Part shown: positions 55,095 through 63,865 of the stretch, in pieces
Position numbering within the stretch: position 1 is the first letter of the stretch
Layout: each line of letters begins with the position of its first letter
Assembly (NCBI RefSeq): GCF_003207795.1
Contig: NZ_NIRT01000001.1
Location: forward strand, 62,001 to 126,000
Source: Komagataeibacter nataicola
GTDB taxonomy: Bacteria > Pseudomonadota > Alphaproteobacteria > Acetobacterales > Acetobacteraceae
DNA length: 64,000 nt
Direction of reading: 5' to 3'
The notes under the pieces: model-generated
What the model was told of the DNA's origin: nothing
What the model saw: the letters and a program-made list of their open reading frames with translations, nothing else
Database searches by the model: none
Program-made: the position numbers and the translations under genes

Positions 55095-57068
55095 TCAGTC
55101 AGACGGGCGCTGCATGATCCGGTCGATATGGGCGGCAAGATCCGCCTGCGTGAAGGGCTTGTGCATGACATTGGCGCTGCCCGCGGGCAGCGCGCCCGCG
55201 CTGGCATAGCCGGTCAGGTACAGCACGCGCAGGCCGGGGCGCAGGGCCTGAAGATGATGCACCGTCTCGAGGCCGCCCATGCCCGGCATCATCACGTCCA
55301 TGATAACGAGGTCGATCGGCCCGAGCCCTTCCTTCATGGCCTGCACCGCCGCCGTGCCGGAGGAATATTCGCACACCTCATGCCCCCGCGCGCGCAAAAA
55401 GCCCACTGTAACCGCGCGCACGCCCGGCTCGTCATCCACCACCATCACATGCAGCGCGCGGGCGCTACTCCCGCCTGCCTTCGCCTGCGGCAGCCGCGCA
55501 GGCAGGCTCCGCTCGCCCACGCCGCCCCCGCCCTGCACCGGCAGGCACAGATCTACGCGCGTGCCCTCGCCCGGCTGGCTGCGCACCTGCACCTCGCCGC
55601 CCACATGGCGGATGAAACCGTAGATCATGGACAGGCCCAGCCCCGTGCCACGCCCCATATCCTTGGTGGTGAAGAACGGCTCAAACACGCGCGCCAGCGT
55701 ATCGGGCGACATGCCGACCCCCTGGTCGGTGACCGAAACCATCACGTAATTACCCGGCACGAGGTTGGTGCCCGCCACGATCTCCTTCACCTGCTTGAGT
55801 GCCGTTGAGACCACGATCATGCCGCCGCCCGGCATGGCATCGACTGCGTTGATGCACAGGTTGAGCACGGCGAGTTCAAGCTGGCCCGCATCGGTGCACA
55901 CGGGTGGCAACGCCCCGTCAGAGGCGGCGGTATCGACCACGATGGAACAGGGCTGCCCATTGGCCCCTTTGCCCTGACGCGACACCACGGTCTGCGCCAG
56001 GAGGTCCTTCATGCCGTGCAGCAGGGCATTCACATCCACCGGCTCGAGGCTCAGGTCACGCGGGCGGCTGAAATTGAGCAGCCTGCGCGTGAGTGATGCG
56101 CCACGCTGGGCGGCAGCGGCGGCATTGTCGAGCAGGCGGGCCATCGGCCCTTCCTCCGGCCCCATGTCACGCACCAGTTCAAGCGAGCCGAGCACGGCGG
56201 TAAGCAGGTTGTTGAAGTCGTGCGCAATGCCGCCCGCCAGCGTGCCAAGCGCCTGCATCTTTTCCGCCTGGCGCAGGCGGGCCGCCATTTCCTGCTGGCG
56301 GGTGATGTCGCGGTTGATGACGACCGAGCCCGCCGAGCCATCGCCTAACGCACCAAGCACCACGCGCGTGATCTCGCGCCACCGCCCCTGCGCCGCACCC
56401 CGGATATGGGCGGGCAGCTCCAGCGCTTCCTCGTCGCGCCCCTCCGCCCGCAGGCGCGCGCTCGCCGCGCGGACGATGGGCAGGAGGTCAGCATCACACA
56501 GCTCCTCCTCCGTGCGGCCAAGGCAGGCATTGATGTCGCGGCCATAGAAATCGGCGGCCTGCTGGTTGATGCGGATGAAGCGTCCCTGCGCATCCTTGAA
56601 GCCAAGGCCCGAGCGCAGGTTGTCGAGCAACCCGTGCAGCAGCATGCGCTCGGTGCGCAGTTCCCGCTCGAGGCGGTGGTAATCCGCCGCCTGCACGATC
56701 ATGGCGCGCAGGGCGTCGGGGTCCCATGGCTTGTGGGAATAAAACGAGATGCGCCCCTGGTTGAGCGCTGCCGCCACCGCGCCGATATCGGCATAGCCGG
56801 TAAGCAGTATGGCCTGGGCGTCGCTATGGGCGCGGGCACGGGCCAGCATCACATCGCCGCCCATCTCGGGCATGCGCTGGTCAGACACGATCACGTCCAC
56901 GTCGTTGCGGGTGGAGAGGATCTCCAGCGCCTCGGTGGGCGATGTGGTGGACAGGACGGTAAACGTGTCTTCCAGCAGATCGGTCAGGGCAACGAGAATT
57001 TCCGCCTCGTCATCCACCAGCAGGACAACGGGGCGCACCTGCGCGGCGGGATCTGTATTTATGGGCAT
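55095..57068 (-). CDS. hybrid histidine kinase REC-PAS-HK-REC
   Basis: 657 residues, no membrane helices. An N-terminal receiver (about 12-130) with Asp63 ([14 protein letters not shown]) and a KPWDPD stretch, a PAS domain (about 145-257), the kinase core with His283 ([22 protein letters not shown]) and an ATPase ([32 protein letters not shown]), and a C-terminal receiver with Asp591 ([12 protein letters not shown]) and HKPF. GGGAGAGACC is before ATG 57068. It is the last gene of the chemosensory operon. The first receiver, with the KPW wording, resembles those of RpfG-like or HoxJ-like proteins. It probably sends the signal on; no DNA-binding partner is next to it. Confidence 0.92.
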
Positions 57069-57100: not shown

Positions 57101-58963
57101 CTAGGCCATGCGCTCGGATGATGTGGCGACCGGTGGCGGGCTTTCGCTCCCCTGCCCCGGATGCCACGGTATGGAAATGGTGAAGCGCGCACCGCCCTCC
57201 GGCGCCCGCCCGACCGACAGGCTGCCCTGGTGCGCCTGCACCACGCTATAGGCAATGGCCAGCCCCAGCCCCGTGCCCGCCCCCACCGGCTTTGTGGTGA
57301 AGAACGGCTCGAAAATGCGCTCCTGCACATCAGGTGCGATGCCGGGGCCGTTATCGGTAATGACAAAGACGTAACTGTCAGGCCCGCTGTCATTATGGGC
57401 GAGGTAGGTGTGGATATCGATCTCGCCCACCGCTATGCCGCCCTGACCAGACATATCATCATGCTGGGCGGCAAGAATTGCGTCCGCCGCATTGCTGATA
57501 ATATTCATGATGACCTGATTGAGCAGCGCCGCCTGGCAGTACAGCCGGTCAGGCGCCTCATAATGCCGCCTGACCGCAATGCCGCTGCCCAGCTTCTGGG
57601 TCAGCAGCGCCATGACCGTTTCCAGCGCCTCGGGCACGTCGATGATCTGGAACAGCCCTTCATCGAGCCGCGAGAATTTGCGCAGGTTCAGCACAAGGTT
57701 CTGGATCCGCCGCAGCCCCATGTTCATCGACCCCACCCGGTCGCGGCACTTGGTCAGGATCGCCCCGCGCTGTTCGTGATCGGGGTCGGTGGTCGTGGTT
57801 TCCATGGCCGCGAGCCGGTCAAGCCCGCGCGCCACCGTATCCTTGTGCGCCAGGATGAAGGCCAGCGGATTGTTGATCTCGTGCGCGATGCCCGCCACCA
57901 GTTCACCTAAGGAGGCCATCTTGGCGGTCTGCACCAGCTTGCCCTGGGTTTCGATCAGCTTGCGGTTGGCATCGGCCAGTTCGCGGTTGGCCTGCTCCAG
58001 CGCTTCGGCCAGCGAGGCCTTCGACGCAATGGCCGCCGCCTCCGCGCGCGCGCTTTTCACCGCGATCTCGCGCGCCTGCCGCTCCACCTCGATGCGGCGC
58101 ACGTCATCCTGCAACAGCTTGCGCCGCACCAGCACGCGAATGCGCAGCGCCAGCGCCGCAGGCCCCACATCACGCGAGACGAGATCATCAATCCCCGCCT
58201 CGAACACGCGGGCCGAGAACTCCTTCGCATCGGGCCGGGGGGCGCCATCCACGCCAAGTATGCGCGGCGGCACGTTGCCCGAGAGCAGGTCCTCCTGCCG
58301 CCATTCATCAAGCTTGCGGCATACTTCCAGTCCGTCGAACTCACGGCAGGCAAGGTCGATCACCACGCAGTCCGGCATGTGCTCGGGGTCGTGCAGGAGT
58401 GCGGGCACGAGCCGGGAGGGATCATGCCACAAGGTGACGATATGCCCGTCGCGCCGCAGTTGGTCGAGCAGTTCGGGCACGGCGCGCCTGTGTTCGGGCT
58501 CGGGGGCAATGACCATGATGCGCGCCCGGCGGAACACGCGCTGCGGCACAGGCGAGGGCGCATGCGCGGCGTGCTCGCGCAACAGCGCGCGGATGCGAAA
58601 GACGATCAGCGCCGGGTCGGAGGATTTGGGGATATACGCATCCGCCCCGCTTTCCAGCCCCTCGCGCTCGAGCCCCGGCTCGATCCCCTCGGTCAGGATC
58701 AGCACCGGTATGGTGCGCGTGACCGCGTTCATGCGCAGCTGGCGGGCCAGCTGGCCGCCATTCATGCCCGGCAGGTGATAATCGGCAATCACCAGCCCCG
58801 GCAGCCGGACATCAAGCGTATCGAGCGCCTCCTCCCCGCTGGCCACGCGATGGACGTGAAAGCCATGGCTTTCCAGCATGCGGCGGATGCGCAGGGCCTG
58901 CGTGTCCGAATCCTCCACCAGCAGCAGGGTGTCGGCAATGTCTTCGCGGTCGGTCAGCACCAT
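57101..58963 (-). CDS. histidine kinase with two N-terminal receivers (CheS3-like)
   Basis: 620 residues, cytosolic. Receiver 1 (about 10-130) is intact: Glu-Asp near 17, Asp61 (LVIADYHLPGMNG) and Lys113. Receiver 2 (about 147-282) keeps Asp203 (CVVIDLACREFDG) but has lost the paired acids (IAPEPE) and the lysine (SR in its place). A coiled coil (about 283-345) links to the kinase with His361 (LVAGIAHEINNPLAFIL), N box NIISNAADAI and GAGTGLGLAIAYSV. It sits nine bases after cheB. The layout matches CheS3 of Rhodospirillum centenum, a kinase whose receivers are targets of CheA3. That it is phosphorylated by the local CheA is inferred. Confidence 0.9.
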   Translation of the reverse strand: MVLTDREDIADTLLLVEDSDTQALRIRRMLESHGFHVHRVASGEEALDTLDVRLPGLVIADYHLPGMNGGQLARQLRMNAVTRTIPVLILTEGIEPGLEREGLESGADAYIPKSSDPALIVFRIRALLREHAAHAPSPVPQRVFRRARIMVIAPEPEHRRAVPELLDQLRRDGHIVTLWHDPSRLVPALLHDPEHMPDCVVIDLACREFDGLEVCRKLDEWRQEDLLSGNVPPRILGVDGAPRPDAKEFSARVFEAGIDDLVSRDVGPAALALRIRVLVRRKLLQDDVRRIEVERQAREIAVKSARAEAAAIASKASLAEALEQANRELADANRKLIETQGKLVQTAKMASLGELVAGIAHEINNPLAFILAHKDTVARGLDRLAAMETTTTDPDHEQRGAILTKCRDRVGSMNMGLRRIQNLVLNLRKFSRLDEGLFQIIDVPEALETVMALLTQKLGSGIAVRRHYEAPDRLYCQAALLNQVIMNIISNAADAILAAQHDDMSGQGGIAVGEIDIHTYLAHNDSGPDSYVFVITDNGPGIAPDVQERIFEPFFTTKPVGAGTGLGLAIAYSVVQAHQGSLSVGRAPEGGARFTISIPWHPGQGSESPPPVATSSERMA

Positions 58964-58972
58964 GGGGTCGTC

Positions 58973-60073
58973 TTATCCAGCCAGGGGGTCTTGGGAGGGA
59001 ACCGGGCCGCCCGCCATGGCCCGGAGGATATGAGGGGAGATTTCATGCACCGGCAGGCTGATGCACGCCGCCCCCGCGCGCTCGGCAGCGCCGGGCATGC
59101 CGTGAATGACGGCGGTGCTGCGGTCCTCCACCACCGTGTAGCCGCCGCGCGCACGGATGCGGCCCAGCCCTTCCACGCCATCCTCGCCCATGCCGGTCAG
59201 CAGCACGCCAAGCCCGTCGGCGCCAAAAACCTTTGCCACCGAGGAAAACAGCACGTCGGCCGAGGGCCGCTGCCCCTGCACCGGGGCCGCGTCATGCAGC
59301 AGCACCTCGCCGCGCGTGCCCACCGTCATGTGCCGGTCGCCCGGCGCCACCAGCACGCGGCCGCGCTCGAGTGGCATGCCATGCTGCGCAAGCGTGACCG
59401 GCAGCGCCACCTGCTGGTCAAGCCACCGGGCGAACCCTTCCATGAAGCTTTGGCCCATATGCTGCACCAGCACCACCGGCAGCGCGAAATCAGGCGGCAG
59501 GTCGCCCAGCACGCGGGCAAAGGCGGTTGGTCCCCCGGTAGAGGCGGCCATGGCCACGATGCGGGGGTGAATGGCAAGCGGGTGCGACCACATGCCCTTG
59601 TGGCGAAATGGTTCCGCCTGCATCAGCCGCCGCCGGATGACCGGCACCTGGCTCATGATGTAAAGCTGGGTGGCAATGCCCTGCGCCACGGCGGCACCCG
59701 CGCTGCCCGTAAGGCCCTGCGGCTTCTCGATGACGGTCAGCGCGCCCGAGCGCAGCGCATTCATCGAGACATGCGTCGCCTGCCCGCCCAGCGTGTCGCT
59801 CACGATCACGATGGGGGTGGGAAAATGCGCCATGATCTGCCGCGTGGCCTCAAGCCCGTCCATGCCCGGCAGGCAGATATCCATCGAGATCACGTCCGGC
59901 CGCAGGCGCGGCACGAGGCGCAGGGCTTCCTCCGCCGTTTCCACCGCTTCGGCCAGTTCAAGGCGCGGGTCATCGGCCACCACGCGCATGAGCAGGTGGC
60001 GCAGTACCGCCGAATCCTCCACGATCAGCACGCGCCTTGGCGGCTGGGCGGGCTGGGGCGTGATCACGTTCAC
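58973..60073 (-). CDS. cheB: chemotaxis methylesterase CheB
   Basis: 366 residues. A receiver (about 13-125) with Asp65 (VISMDICLPGMDG) and an effector methylesterase domain (about 170-355) with the triad Ser178 (AASTGGPTAF), His205 (VQHMGQSF) and Asp298 (LLTGMGEDGVEG). It removes methyl groups from MCP glutamates once phosphorylated. Overlaps cheA by four bases. No CheR is in the window, though one must exist for adaptation. Confidence 0.96.
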   Translation of the reverse strand: MNVITPQPAQPPRRVLIVEDSAVLRHLLMRVVADDPRLELAEAVETAEEALRLVPRLRPDVISMDICLPGMDGLEATRQIMAHFPTPIVIVSDTLGGQATHVSMNALRSGALTVIEKPQGLTGSAGAAVAQGIATQLYIMSQVPVIRRRLMQAEPFRHKGMWSHPLAIHPRIVAMAASTGGPTAFARVLGDLPPDFALPVVLVQHMGQSFMEGFARWLDQQVALPVTLAQHGMPLERGRVLVAPGDRHMTVGTRGEVLLHDAAPVQGQRPSADVLFSSVAKVFGADGLGVLLTGMGEDGVEGLGRIRARGGYTVVEDRSTAVIHGMPGAAERAGAACISLPVHEISPHILRAMAGGPVPSQDPLAG

Positions 60074-62172
60074 AAAAGTCCCCTTATGGTATCGATCAGT
60101 TCGCCCTGATCGAAGCGCTGCTTGGTCAGATAGGCCCGTGCGCCACCTTCCATGCCGCGACGGATATCCTCGCCATCATCACGCGAGGTCATGAGCACGA
60201 CGGGAATATGGGCCAGATGCGCATCTCCCTGCATGGCCGCAAGCAGGGTCAGGCCATCCATGCGCGGCATTTCCACATCCGTCACCACCACATCCACATG
60301 CCGCGAGGACTGCTGGAGCATGGCCAGCGCCTCCTCCCCGTCCACCGCAAGGCACACGTCATAACCGTGAGACTGAAGGATCGTTTTCTGCAATGTCCGG
60401 GTCGTGATCGAATCATCGACCACCATGACCAGCGGCGCGTGGCGCACGGGCACCACGGGGGCGGCGCTATCCACGTCGCTGAAATGCGCGCGCCCGCCAT
60501 TGCCGCGCTCGCGCCACCGCGCAAACAGCCGGTCGGGGCTGAGCACGAACACCGGCTGGTCCTCGCGCGGCCAGGCTATGCCAGGCACGAGTTCGCTATC
60601 CAGCCCCACGGCGGTGGCGTCCGATACCAGGAGCGTGCGCACATCGACCATGCGCTCGACGGCAAAGCCGCAGCGCACGCCATCAACCTCCATCACCACC
60701 ACGCTCACCGCGCCATCGCGCACCGGCAGCGGGGCGTTTTCATCACCCACGAAGGCCCGCAGCGGGGCGAGCGGTACCAGTTCCTCCTCGCGCTGTTCGG
60801 GGGCTACGCCCGTGCCATCGGGCGGATGGGGCACCACGGCGAACGGCATGCCGCCCAGCATGCGGATCTCGTTACGCCGCACGCGCAGCAGGTGGCGGAT
60901 CACCCGGCCGGGCAGGCCGAGCGCCTGGCCCGCGTTTTCAACCAGCAGCACGGTGCGCTGGCGCTGCGAGACCGGCACGGTCAGGATGACGGTGGTGCCC
61001 GCGGGCTGGCGCTGCTCCATGCGCACGCTGCCGTGCAGTGCGCGCGCCGCCTCCGCCACGACCGAAAGCCCCACCCCGCGCCCGGCCAGGCTGTCTGCCT
61101 TGCCACGGGTGGAAAAACCCGGCTCGAACACGCGCGCGAGCAACTGCCGCGCATCAAGCGGGGCATCGGCATGGACCAGCCCCTGCCCTGCCGCACGGGC
61201 GGCGATGGCCCGCAGGTCGGGGCCGCGCCCGTCATCGCTTACGGCCACCTGCAGCCGCACCCCGGTCATGGTCACGGCGATGGTGATGTTGAGGCATTCC
61301 GACTTGCCTGCCGCCAGCCGCTCGGCGCGGGTTTCATGCCCGTGCACGATGGCATTGCGCACGAGGTGAATGACCGGGTCGCGCAAGGCCTGCATCACGC
61401 GGCGCTCGGTCTGCACCTCCATGCCGGTCATGTGCACCTCAACGCCCGCCTCCGGCCCGCCATGCTCGCGCGCGATACGCCGGGCCATGGCGGCCAGCGA
61501 GCCGAACACGCTCTCGGCGGGCACAAGGGTTACGGCATGCACTTCCTCGCCCAGGCGCAGCAGGGCGCGGTCGATCTGGCCAGCCATGAGTTCACGCTCG
61601 CGCCCTACCCCCATCAGCCGGCGCGTCATGCGCGCGAATTCGGCCACCGGGTCGGCGAGCATGCGCTCGGGCGCGTGCATGACGGCCCGCGCATCACCAA
61701 GCAGGTCCATCACCTGCGCCCACAGCCGCTCATGCCGATCGGCCACGGCCATGAGATCATGCACGGCGGAGGCCAGCGCATCGAGCCGGGCCACGGGCAC
61801 CTGCACATAGGCCGGGTTTTCAACCTGTGCTGCCCCCTCATCGGGTGCGGCAGGCGCATCCGCGGGGGGGGCGGTCATGAGCAGGTCGATCTCGTCAAGC
61901 GTATCGGCAATGGCGGCAAGATCGGCGGGGTCGGGCAGCGCACGGGCCGAGAGCAGTGCGGAGAGGCGGTTCTCCAGCGCGTGGGCGACCCCCTCCACAA
62001 CCGGCAGTTCAACCGCGCGCGCCGCGCCTTTCAGCGAATGGACACGACGGAAAATTTCCGCAAGGCCCTGCGCGTCCGGACAGCCCGCCGCCACGATGGC
62101 GCGGATGGCCCGCAGGTGGTCACGGTATTCGGCATCGAATACCGCCAGCAATTCATCCCTCAGGTTATCCAC
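60070..62172 (-). CDS. cheA: hybrid chemotaxis kinase CheA with C-terminal receiver
   Basis: About 700 residues: Hpt with His45 (RVHSLKGAARAVEL), a region without a recognisable P2 (CheY-binding) domain, a P3/P4 dimer and ATPase core (LVRNAIVHGHETRAERLAAGKSE, SDDGRGPDLRAI, FSTRGKADSLAGRGVGLSVV), a P5 CheW-like domain and a C-terminal receiver with Asp632 (VVTDVEMPRMDG) and Lys684. The GTG at 62172 follows the MCP stop after 10 bases; earlier in-frame starts overlap the MCP gene. The receiver tail and the missing P2 are typical of Wsp/Frz/Che3-type CheA rather than flagellar CheA. Confidence 0.94.
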   Translation of the reverse strand: MDNLRDELLAVFDAEYRDHLRAIRAIVAAGCPDAQGLAEIFRRVHSLKGAARAVELPVVEGVAHALENRLSALLSARALPDPADLAAIADTLDEIDLLMTAPPADAPAAPDEGAAQVENPAYVQVPVARLDALASAVHDLMAVADRHERLWAQVMDLLGDARAVMHAPERMLADPVAEFARMTRRLMGVGRERELMAGQIDRALLRLGEEVHAVTLVPAESVFGSLAAMARRIAREHGGPEAGVEVHMTGMEVQTERRVMQALRDPVIHLVRNAIVHGHETRAERLAAGKSECLNITIAVTMTGVRLQVAVSDDGRGPDLRAIAARAAGQGLVHADAPLDARQLLARVFEPGFSTRGKADSLAGRGVGLSVVAEAARALHGSVRMEQRQPAGTTVILTVPVSQRQRTVLLVENAGQALGLPGRVIRHLLRVRRNEIRMLGGMPFAVVPHPPDGTGVAPEQREEELVPLAPLRAFVGDENAPLPVRDGAVSVVVMEVDGVRCGFAVERMVDVRTLLVSDATAVGLDSELVPGIAWPREDQPVFVLSPDRLFARWRERGNGGRAHFSDVDSAAPVVPVRHAPLVMVVDDSITTRTLQKTILQSHGYDVCLAVDGEEALAMLQQSSRHVDVVVTDVEMPRMDGLTLLAAMQGDAHLAHIPVVLMTSRDDGEDIRRGMEGGARAYLTKQRFDQGELIDTIRGLL

Positions 62173-62182
62173 GGGCCAACCG

Positions 62183-63865
62183 TCAGGTCCGGTAACGCGC
62201 GGAAATGGTGAGCAGCTGCTTGGACAGCTTGCCAAGGTTGCTGGCCGAGACCTCGAGGTTGCGCGTGCCGCCCGATGTCTGCTGGCTGGCCTGACGGATG
62301 CTCTGCAGCGCGGTCATGACCTGCTCGATGCCGATCTGCTGCTGGTTGGTTGACGCCACGATCTGCTGGAAGGCGTTCACGCCCTCCTGGATGCCGCCGG
62401 TCATGCGCTCGATGGTGCGGTAGGCGATGTCGGTGCGTTCCTTGCCGGCCGAGACGCGCTTGACCGCCTCCTCCGTCAGCATGACCGAAGTGTTGATGCC
62501 GCGCTGGATGTCGCCCAGTATGGCGCGCACGTTCTGGGTGGCGTCACGCGACTGGTCGGCAAGGATCTTCATCTCGGCGGCCACAACGGCGAACGAGCGG
62601 CCATGCTCGCCTGCCGCCGCCGCCTCGATCGCGGCATTGAGCGCCAGCAGGTGCGAACGCTCCGACAGGTCATTGACCGATGCGATGATCTCGCTGATCG
62701 CCTCGGTGCGCTCGGACAGGGCCACGATGTTCGAGGCCACGGCCTCGGCGCCGTCATGGGTGTGGGCCATGGCGCGCGCGGTTTCCTCCACCGCTTCAAG
62801 CCCGCTGGCCGAGCTGTGCACGATCACCTCCGCTGATGAAATCACCTCACGCGCGCGCTTGCTGATCTGCGCACCGGAATGGGTGATCTCGTCCACCGTG
62901 GCCGCCGTTTCCTGGACTGCGGCAAACTGCTCTTCAACACTTGCGGCCTGCTGCTGGGTGGAGGCGCGGATCTCGGCCACCGCCGCATCGAGGTTCTGCG
63001 TCACCTCGCCGCTCTGGCGCGCGATTTCGCGCAGGCCGTCGATCATGCGGTTGAGGCCCGCTGCAAGGCGGGCGACTTCATCGCGCTCCTCGCCCATGCC
63101 ACCCACCTTGGCCCGCGTGGCGAGATCGCCCTGCCCCACGCGTTCCATCACGTGCATGATCGACGAGATCGGCTCCATGATCGAGCGCCGCGTCCAGAAG
63201 GTCACGATCAGCGCCACCACCACGGCGACCACCATGCCAATGGCCAGCGAGCGGCGGCTGTAGTCATAGGAGGCAGCCCCCTGGGTTTCGGCCACCTGCA
63301 CCCCGTGGTCGAGCAGCGAGGCGGCGCGGCCCACGAGCAGGTCTATCGACTGCTCGCGGCTGTCTATGCGCGAGGCCTGTTCGCGCACGCTGGGGTCATT
63401 GCCCGCGCGGATGGCCTGGAACAGGAGCCCCGCGCCACGTGTATCCATCTGGAACTGGCTGGAAATGTCGCGCAGCTGGCTGGCCACGGTATTGAACATC
63501 TCGCGCTGGTCGTTGCTGCGCGCAAGGCGCCCGCCTTCCTCAGCACGGGAAAGCACGCCCGCGAGCAGGCTGTCAGCCTCGCGGGCCTTTTCATCCCAGC
63601 TTGCAATGGCATCCTCGAGCACGGCGGGAGCGGTCTCGAAATCATGGGCATAGTAATGCGCCAGGATGGCGAGCCTGCGGGCGACGAGGTCGTTCTCATT
63701 GGCGCGGATATGGGTCAGTTCACGATAGACCGAGAGGTCGCGCGTGACGATGATGGTCATCTCGTCGCGCACCTCGCGGATCTGCCCCAGCGCATAGATG
63801 CCCAGCGAGACCATGAGCAGGACACCGACCATGAAACCGAACAGCAGGCGATTGGCGATAGTCAC
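62183..63865 (-). CDS. methyl-accepting chemotaxis protein
   Basis: 560 residues. TM1 about 7-27, a periplasmic four-helix-type sensor to about 205, TM2 about 207-226, HAMP about 227-285 and a cytoplasmic coiled coil with the hairpin tip SERSHLLALNAAIEAAAAGEHGRSFAVVAAEMKILADQS near 430. The tip departs from the motility-MCP wording (ShLLALNAAIEAAaAGE, EMK in place of EVR), as in non-flagellar systems. It starts with GTG at 63865, six bases after the cheW stop. The ligand is unknown. Confidence 0.95.
   Translation of the reverse strand: MTIANRLLFGFMVGVLLMVSLGIYALGQIREVRDEMTIIVTRDLSVYRELTHIRANENDLVARRLAILAHYYAHDFETAPAVLEDAIASWDEKAREADSLLAGVLSRAEEGGRLARSNDQREMFNTVASQLRDISSQFQMDTRGAGLLFQAIRAGNDPSVREQASRIDSREQSIDLLVGRAASLLDHGVQVAETQGAASYDYSRRSLAIGMVVAVVVALIVTFWTRRSIMEPISSIMHVMERVGQGDLATRAKVGGMGEERDEVARLAAGLNRMIDGLREIARQSGEVTQNLDAAVAEIRASTQQQAASVEEQFAAVQETAATVDEITHSGAQISKRAREVISSAEVIVHSSASGLEAVEETARAMAHTHDGAEAVASNIVALSERTEAISEIIASVNDLSERSHLLALNAAIEAAAAGEHGRSFAVVAAEMKILADQSRDATQNVRAILGDIQRGINTSVMLTEEAVKRVSAGKERTDIAYRTIERMTGGIQEGVNAFQQIVASTNQQQIGIEQVMTALQSIRQASQQTSGGTRNLEVSASNLGKLSKQLLTISARYRT

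Follow-up and report, generated by a model that had tools for sequence, protein, structure and literature searches.

A receiver and pseudo-receiver pair on a histidine kinase of Acetobacteraceae, and the association of its first receiver with a neighbouring Che operon

The window analysed here, a stretch of 64,000 nucleotides of Komagataeibacter nataicola, carries among chemotaxis-type genes a gene for a histidine kinase with two unequal receivers at its N-terminus. What does a kinase do with two receivers when only the first has the residues of a phosphate acceptor, which protein would feed it, and where would its own phosphate go? The open reading frame given in the original prediction is real and covers exactly 57101-58963, with its ATG at 58963 and its TAG at 57103-57101; it lies on the minus strand, a detail absent from that prediction. 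The gene and its parts are as follows:

57101-58963, minus strand: kinase gene (620 aa), encoding receiver 1, pseudo-receiver 2, signalling helix, HisKA and HATPase in this order
58595-58924, minus strand: receiver 1, residues 14-123 (Pfam Response_reg, E = 5e-25)
58781-58783, minus strand: codon of D61, the predicted phospho-acceptor for CheA
58118-58525, minus strand: receiver 2, residues 147-282, a pseudo-receiver (AF2 model and profile match to PleD)
58355-58357, minus strand: codon of D203, in the acceptor place of receiver 2, a domain without acid pair or Lys
57914-58117, minus strand: signalling helix, residues 283-350, extending the last helix of receiver 2 towards HisKA
57656-57910, minus strand: HisKA, residues 352-436, with His361 within HEINN (Pfam, 25.9 bits for a cut-off of 26.9)
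57164-57529, minus strand: HATPase_c, residues 479-600 (Pfam)

From the full protein, Pfam recovered receiver 1 and the HATPase, placed HisKA just below its cut-off and missed receiver 2. The surrounding genes are the following:

55095-57068, minus strand: HK2, a second kinase with REC-PAS-HisKA-HATPase-REC, directly after the kinase gene (Pfam)
56676-57029, minus strand: N-terminal receiver of HK2, intact, a candidate phosphotransfer target of the kinase
58973-60073, minus strand: cheB, ending 9 bases ahead of the kinase gene
60070-62235, minus strand: cheA, with Hpt, HATPase, CheW and a C-terminal receiver (Pfam)
62183-63865, minus strand: mcp, with HAMP and MCP signalling domain (Pfam)
L127:9872-12446, past the window end: cheW, cheR and cheW, the remaining genes of the operon

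These genes look like one operon, in the order cheW-cheR-cheW-mcp-cheA(REC)-cheB-kinase-HK2. For HK2, our guess is a start at the ATG at 57068, with GGAGAG just upstream, the listed GTG at 57167 overlapping the kinase gene. In its gene content, cheW-cheR-cheW-mcp-cheA(REC)-cheB, the cluster corresponds to an alternative-function (Wsp/Che3-like) chemosensory system, for which a non-motility output would be expected; no TPR model was matched in CheR. The mechanical list of open reading frames also holds long plus-strand open frames antisense to the kinase gene and to cheB (window positions 57161-57910 and 58379-60109).

A letter-by-letter check found the catalytic set of receiver 1 complete (E17, D18, D61, T91 and K113), and the acid pair, Asp61 and Lys113 that had been predicted there are therefore confirmed. 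From 397 Acetobacteraceae genomes of 102 genera, we retrieved orthologues of the kinase (E ≤ 1e-60) in 129 genomes and 26 genera, and examined all 129 loci with their flanks. A CheA of the window type (E ≤ 1e-40) was found in 73 of the 397 genomes, and 71 of these 73 also bear the kinase. Two genomes without a CheA match at this threshold (G293 and G348) were also scored as Che+, since cheB adjoins the kinase gene in both, and G348 has a piece of cheA as well. The 129 orthologues are divided into 73 Che+ and 56 Che-, one of the latter (G126) being a broken kinase gene. A Che operon without the kinase is rare (2 out of 73, both weak matches with 33-34% identity), and the kinase and HK2 without Che are frequent (56 out of 129).

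The full catalytic set of receiver 1 is kept in 72 of the 73 Che+ orthologues versus 2 of the 56 Che- ones. In the 73rd Che+ genome (G300, L157:3513-5350), the kinase is split into two open reading frames between receivers 1 and 2, and the frame with receiver 1 still carries the catalytic residues. Of the 56 Che- genomes, which belong to 13 genera, 2 retain D18, 18 retain D61 and 31 retain K113, and 23 different broken sets were counted. The two Che- genomes with a full set (G022 and G079), in which no CheA of the window type was detected, would reflect either a recent loss of Che or another donor. In G021, the Che operon is on a different contig and receiver 1 is intact, which indicates that function, not linkage, counts.

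We then counted changes on a tree of the kinase core and the HK2 core, with receiver columns excluded (127 rows, after a broken gene, L122, and a locus at a contig end, L205, were dropped). This is a kinase tree and not a species tree, obtained by a quick method, with some long branches and without direction of change. The split L157 was excluded from the Che+ site counts; the remaining 71 Che+ and 55 Che- tips were counted apart, with shared inner branches falling in both counts. The five catalytic sites of receiver 1 show 0 Fitch changes in the Che+ tips (length 15.5) versus 40 in the Che- tips (length 17.2). For the same five sites of the N-terminal receiver of HK2, 2 changes were found with Che and 1 without, the latter belonging to a broken HK2 (G307). 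From Che+ to Che-, the mean number of Fitch changes per site goes from 4.8 to 9.0 in receiver 1, from 7.2 to 6.9 in HisKA/HATPase, from 5.7 to 5.4 in the N-terminal receiver of HK2 and from 11.4 to 7.6 in receiver 2. Receiver 1 is the sole domain among these four that relaxes when Che is absent.

Helix 1 of a receiver is the usual docking face for its phospho-donor. In helix 1 of receiver 1, residues S19, T21, Q22 and A23 do not change in the presence of Che, and change 14, 22, 16 and 14 times, respectively, in its absence; this is the pattern that a docking face for CheA would be expected to leave in the sequences. G106 and D108 of receiver 1 are unchanged in both the Che+ and the Che- sets, and a decayed receiver 1 therefore still seems to be structural.

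The Che state switches only 3 times on the kinase/HK2 tree, once on the longest branch (G013), so that the formal independence of these observations is small: the three independent Che+/Che- pairs agree in direction, with P = 0.25, the best value attainable. In Acetobacter oeni and in three genomes of genus g31, all Che-less, remnants of CheB are found directly ahead of the kinase gene:

L009:8824-9921, L176:8443-9396, L177:5402-6313 and L181:8404-9339: decayed CheB remnants, in which the AASTGG stretch of the window CheB is not conserved

We take this AASTGG stretch to hold the catalytic Ser. The persistence of a decayed CheB ahead of the kinase gene indicates that Che was lost rather than never gained in A. 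oeni and g31. In another genome (L144, G048), mcp and cheA are present with no cheB match beside the kinase gene, and receiver 1 is intact; this Che system is apparently without its adaptation enzyme at the locus. Most or all of the cluster was also found in a replicon of Methylobacterium bullatum, on a plasmid of Pseudoroseomonas cervicalis and in G434, a genome from another family (L249, L251 and L252), which suggests horizontal transfer. On a Polyangiaceae contig (L010:1122-4306), a version of the kinase with a single receiver precedes an HK2-like gene (36% identity), and the two-kinase pair would thus be older or wider than the family.

Receiver 2 presents D203 at the acceptor place. I152-A153-P154-E155-P156-E157 occupies the place of the acid pair, with A153 and P154 aligned to the pair, G237 is aligned to the Thr position, and S263-R264 stands where the Lys belongs. 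The reading of D203, of IAPEPE for the acid pair and of SR for the lysine in the original prediction was therefore right to the letter. Both sequence and model argue that this domain is a genuine receiver by descent. The segment alone matches Response_reg with E = 2.5e-5 (24.8 bits, for a cut-off of 30.2), 48 orthologous segments were scanned and 32 of them hit the same model at E ≤ 0.01, and structure prediction of residues 147-282 (AF2) gives a (beta-alpha)5 receiver fold with a mean pLDDT of 90.8. The alignment behind the models comprised 48 of the 129 orthologues, and G173, D198, R222 and G257 are invariant in the 48 sequences aligned. The unequal receiver pattern is beyond chance, being constrained in the orthologues.

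According to the available part of PMC12632262, a pseudo-receiver is a receiver in which at least one of five active-site residues is missing. The window protein is without the acid pair, the Thr and the Lys, and the Lys is missing from all 129 orthologues, none of which has a Lys anywhere in 261-267. D203 is found in 70 of the 129 and two acids at the place of the pair in 30, and the two features never occur together (0 out of 129). An acid pair situated elsewhere in receiver 2 would have told against the predicted degeneracy, and the aligned place holds no such pair with D203 in any orthologue. With no complete site in 129 sequences and with varied residues in its place, receiver 2 is not newly broken in the window kinase; from these sequences, we consider it a pseudo-receiver in all 129, decayed in various ways. 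In line with descent from a receiver, a Niveispirillum plasmid encodes a distant relative (L250) in which a similar receiver pair is joined to another kinase core, and both sites read intact.

It could be argued that D203 retains a weak chemistry and is still a substrate of some kinase, and that both receivers are inputs: D203 persists in 70 orthologues, E155 and E157 are near it in the window protein, and 3 of the 129 combine D203 with one acid, at position 154. However, the Lys and the combination of two acids with D203 are absent throughout, and the acceptor in the 30 two-acid orthologues is Asn (19), Gly (3), Ala (3), Arg (3) or Thr (2). Moreover, Fitch counts give at least 8 changes of site 203 in the Che+ tips and 5 in the Che- tips. 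A second phosphorylated input is thus highly improbable. The claim that only receiver 1 accepts phosphate from CheA is, on the contrary, strongly supported by this comparison of sequences, given the fate of receiver 1 with and without Che and a pseudo-receiver 2 in every orthologue.

If receiver 2 takes no phosphate, to what does it correspond? Searched against PDB, its profile finds PleD first (E = 6e-22), the next protein being at 8e-13. With both receivers as the query, phmmer gives one continuous alignment with PleD 4-279 (E = 6e-17); PleD ranks second in this search, after a protein with a single receiver whose match is limited to receiver 1. The full-length model, predicted as a monomer (pLDDT 84.7, pTM 0.56), superposes on both receivers of PleD (2wb4_B, Z 28.6, 268 residues, 3.1 A). 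PleD occupies the top five rows of this structure comparison, the next row having Z 20.9, and the model fits activated PleD (Z 28.6 and 28.2) better than 1w25 (Z 25.0). Receiver 2 alone is less specific: PleD 147-282 (second receiver) has Z 16.5 with VIA-align, tied with other receivers, and KdpE and BqsR rank above PleD with Foldseek. In sequence and in the predicted model, the packing of the receiver pair matches the receiver/pseudo-receiver stem of PleD: over 268 residues, the two stems agree in size, in fold and in how the domains are placed relative to each other. The outputs differ: that of PleD is a GGDEF diguanylate cyclase, whereas here HisKA-HATPase would be reached via a coiled coil. 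In PleD, phosphorylation of the receiver alters its contacts with the pseudo-receiver, as reported in the available part of PMC12632262.

A pseudo-receiver may also bind a small molecule. ShkA is another histidine kinase with a pseudo-receiver, which binds c-di-GMP (PMC7010744, as far as its available text goes), and receiver 2 could in the same manner be a ligand sensor (e.g. for c-di-GMP) gating the kinase independently of CheA. Indeed, receiver 2 does not relax in Che-less genomes, where its mean of Fitch changes falls, which implies a role of its own; four of its residues are also invariant in the 48 sequences aligned. However, PleD, in which the pseudo-receiver works by contact with the receiver, comes first in the profile search and in the comparison of the receiver pair, and is among the best for receiver 2 alone. 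Furthermore, the ShkA pseudo-receiver lies past the catalytic domain and ahead of a true receiver in that description, whereas receiver 2 lies ahead of HisKA. We therefore regard a ligand sensor as unlikely, and a PleD-like stem is the reading kept here.

The link between stem and kinase core would be the signalling helix. A long coiled coil had been predicted at this place; the model does give a helix from about 268 to 388 that runs on from the last helix of receiver 2, with low confidence near 339-368 (pLDDT block means of 57-66). The spacing between R274 and H361 is 87 residues in 76 orthologues, 80 in 39, 76 in 5 and 73 in 9 (n = 129). It is 0, 7 or 14 residues shorter than the longest in 124 of the 129 and 11 residues shorter in 5, all of genus g54, while the other stretches measured (113-151 and 203-264) have many lengths among the orthologues. 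Shifts by heptads or by 11 are what a paired coiled coil demands. In receiver-controlled kinases, helix lengths prefer multiples of seven (PMC13269768, available part). The further suggestion that receiver 2 tunes the kinase is plausible to this extent: the pair matches the PleD stem, and the last helix of receiver 2 heads towards the kinase core in the model.

The kinase has the layout of the LvrB type, i.e. a receiver, a signalling helix extending its last helix, HisKA and HATPase, with no C-terminal receiver, as this type is presented in the available part of PMC13269768; the steps of seven in 124 of 129 orthologues are also in line with it. LvrB has one receiver, fed by LvrA, whereas the window kinase has a pseudo-receiver inserted after its receiver and would be fed by a CheA. 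From sequence and model, we consider the window kinase a receiver-controlled histidine kinase in which a PleD-like stem replaces the single receiver of LvrB. In the open-licence literature, we found no description of a PleD-like stem on a receiver-controlled histidine kinase, and none of an Acetobacteraceae kinase of the window type.

The original prediction compared the kinase with CheS3, and this holds for the circuit and fails for the family. CheS3 of the Rhodospirillum centenum Che3 cascade also has two N-terminal receivers, of which only the first works, and belongs to a che cluster with a receiver-bearing CheA (PMC3868531, here and below for the part available). CheS3 has a PAS domain and an HWE kinase core, whereas the window kinase has HisKA and no PAS: no Pfam PAS match was obtained at E ≤ 0.001, the model showing a helix there, and no HWE model matched at E ≤ 0.001, HisKA and HATPase_c being the matching ones. 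The acceptor place of the second receiver is Ala191 in CheS3, whereas D203 is kept here. The target of CheS3 is the stand-alone CheY3, whereas the window kinase has HK2 next door and no CheY; from the first cheW to hslV, the minus-strand genes leave no room for a single-domain CheY3. The window kinase is thus CheS3-like in circuit and not in family, CheS3 being known here by its description and not by its sequence. To our knowledge, the way in which CheA signals to a second kinase in a non-motility Che system has been described only for CheS3.

In which direction would CheA act? His361, Glu362 and Asn365 are present in all 129 orthologues, including the 56 Che-less ones. As this kinase core is kept where receiver 1 is dead, the kinase must work without a phosphorylated receiver 1. 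This speaks for a kinase that is on by default and is modulated or braked by CheA. In the CheS3 system, CheA3 phosphorylates the first receiver and thereby lowers the kinase output (PMC3868531). LvrB is activated by phosphorylation of its receiver, which makes the sign of control by CheA uncertain here. As described in PMC13269768, once the receiver of LvrB is phosphorylated, the coiled coil forms and the catalytic domains are freed, and the window kinase could likewise be activated by CheA, with the decayed receivers of Che-less genomes locked in the active state. The better fit of the model to activated PleD goes in this direction. However, CheS3 is the closest circuit, and its kinase is switched off when the first receiver is phosphorylated. 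Moreover, a lock in the active state would be needed repeatedly, since the 56 Che-less genomes, all with the His361-Glu362-Asn365 triad intact, come from 13 genera and show 23 different broken sets. We hold activation by CheA to be less likely, and modulation of a default-on kinase is the preferred reading.

The phosphate of His361 is likely to go to the N-terminal receiver of HK2, to judge from conservation and adjacency. HK2 adjoins the kinase gene in 128 of the 129 loci, and at the 129th (L205) the contig ends. DDD[T/S]K is found in the N-terminal receiver of 127 of the 128 HK2 orthologues, with Che or without, the exception being the broken frame of G307. Best matched to CckA in NCBIfam, HK2 reaches 328.8 of 1000 bits, far below the cut-off, and is not considered a CckA orthologue. 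The C-terminal receiver of HK2 is missing in 23 of 128 orthologues, one of which is a broken gene. It is missing in genera g33, g54, g57, g71 and g14, where the N-terminal receiver is intact.

Where the C-terminal receiver is missing, phosphate should leave the kinase pair. The recipient of the kinase could then be a free response regulator elsewhere in the genome, with HK2 as a parallel kinase. For this relay target, we searched the receivers of four small Che-less genomes and the HATPase proteins of two of them. An orphan OmpR-type regulator stood out, present in 371 of the 397 genomes. However, only 129 genomes have the kinase; a regulator so common in kinase-less genomes gives no link and was rejected, whereas the N-terminal receiver of HK2 is both intact and adjacent nearly throughout. 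A free regulator as the recipient is, in our opinion, not very likely, and HK2 remains the preferred target. In G032 (L269:1251-2005), a CtrA-like regulator (NCBIfam RespRegCtrARhodob, below its cut-off) has its receiver and DNA-binding parts in different frames; the receiver seems to be without the acceptor Asp, and this could be a sequencing error.

These results can be assembled into a mechanism that we consider probable as a whole. The input would be a PleD-type stem, made of the true receiver 1, the pseudo-receiver 2 and a long helix into HisKA. When the Che operon is present, CheA would transfer phosphate to D61 of receiver 1, and phosphorylated D61 would alter the packing of receiver 1 on receiver 2 and on the dimer partner. 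Receiver 2 would take no phosphate and, through its last helix, would convert this change into a coiled coil of different register or pairing, thereby resetting the kinase. The most likely recipient of the phosphate of His361 would then be the N-terminal receiver of the adjoining HK2. In this scheme, the kinase and HK2 make up a conserved core, to which the Che operon is an accessory input. At rest, the kinase is probably active with receiver 1 unphosphorylated, and CheA would modulate it, probably as a brake. The comparison itself shows that the chemistry of receiver 1 follows the presence of Che, that receiver 2 is a pseudo-receiver throughout, that the predicted stem matches PleD and that the helix length is quantised; from this we infer the phosphotransfers, the direction in which CheA controls the kinase and HK2 as the target.

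In this kinase family, an input has come and gone; comparing its members amounts to a natural experiment, which points to the receiver fed by CheA and even to its docking helix. It joins two themes that have been separate, the pseudo-receiver stem of PleD and the receiver-controlled kinases, and it provides sites that can be tested: D61, T21/Q22/A23, the length of the helix in steps of seven and the N-terminal receiver of HK2. More tentatively, the PleD stem may be a portable device that converts phosphorylation of an Asp into a pairing of the coiled coil, for histidine kinases as well as cyclases. Che would then be a removable brake on a default-on two-kinase relay, from the kinase to the N-terminal receiver of HK2, in Acetobacteraceae, and its loss would let the active site and the docking helix of receiver 1 decay while the relay goes on.
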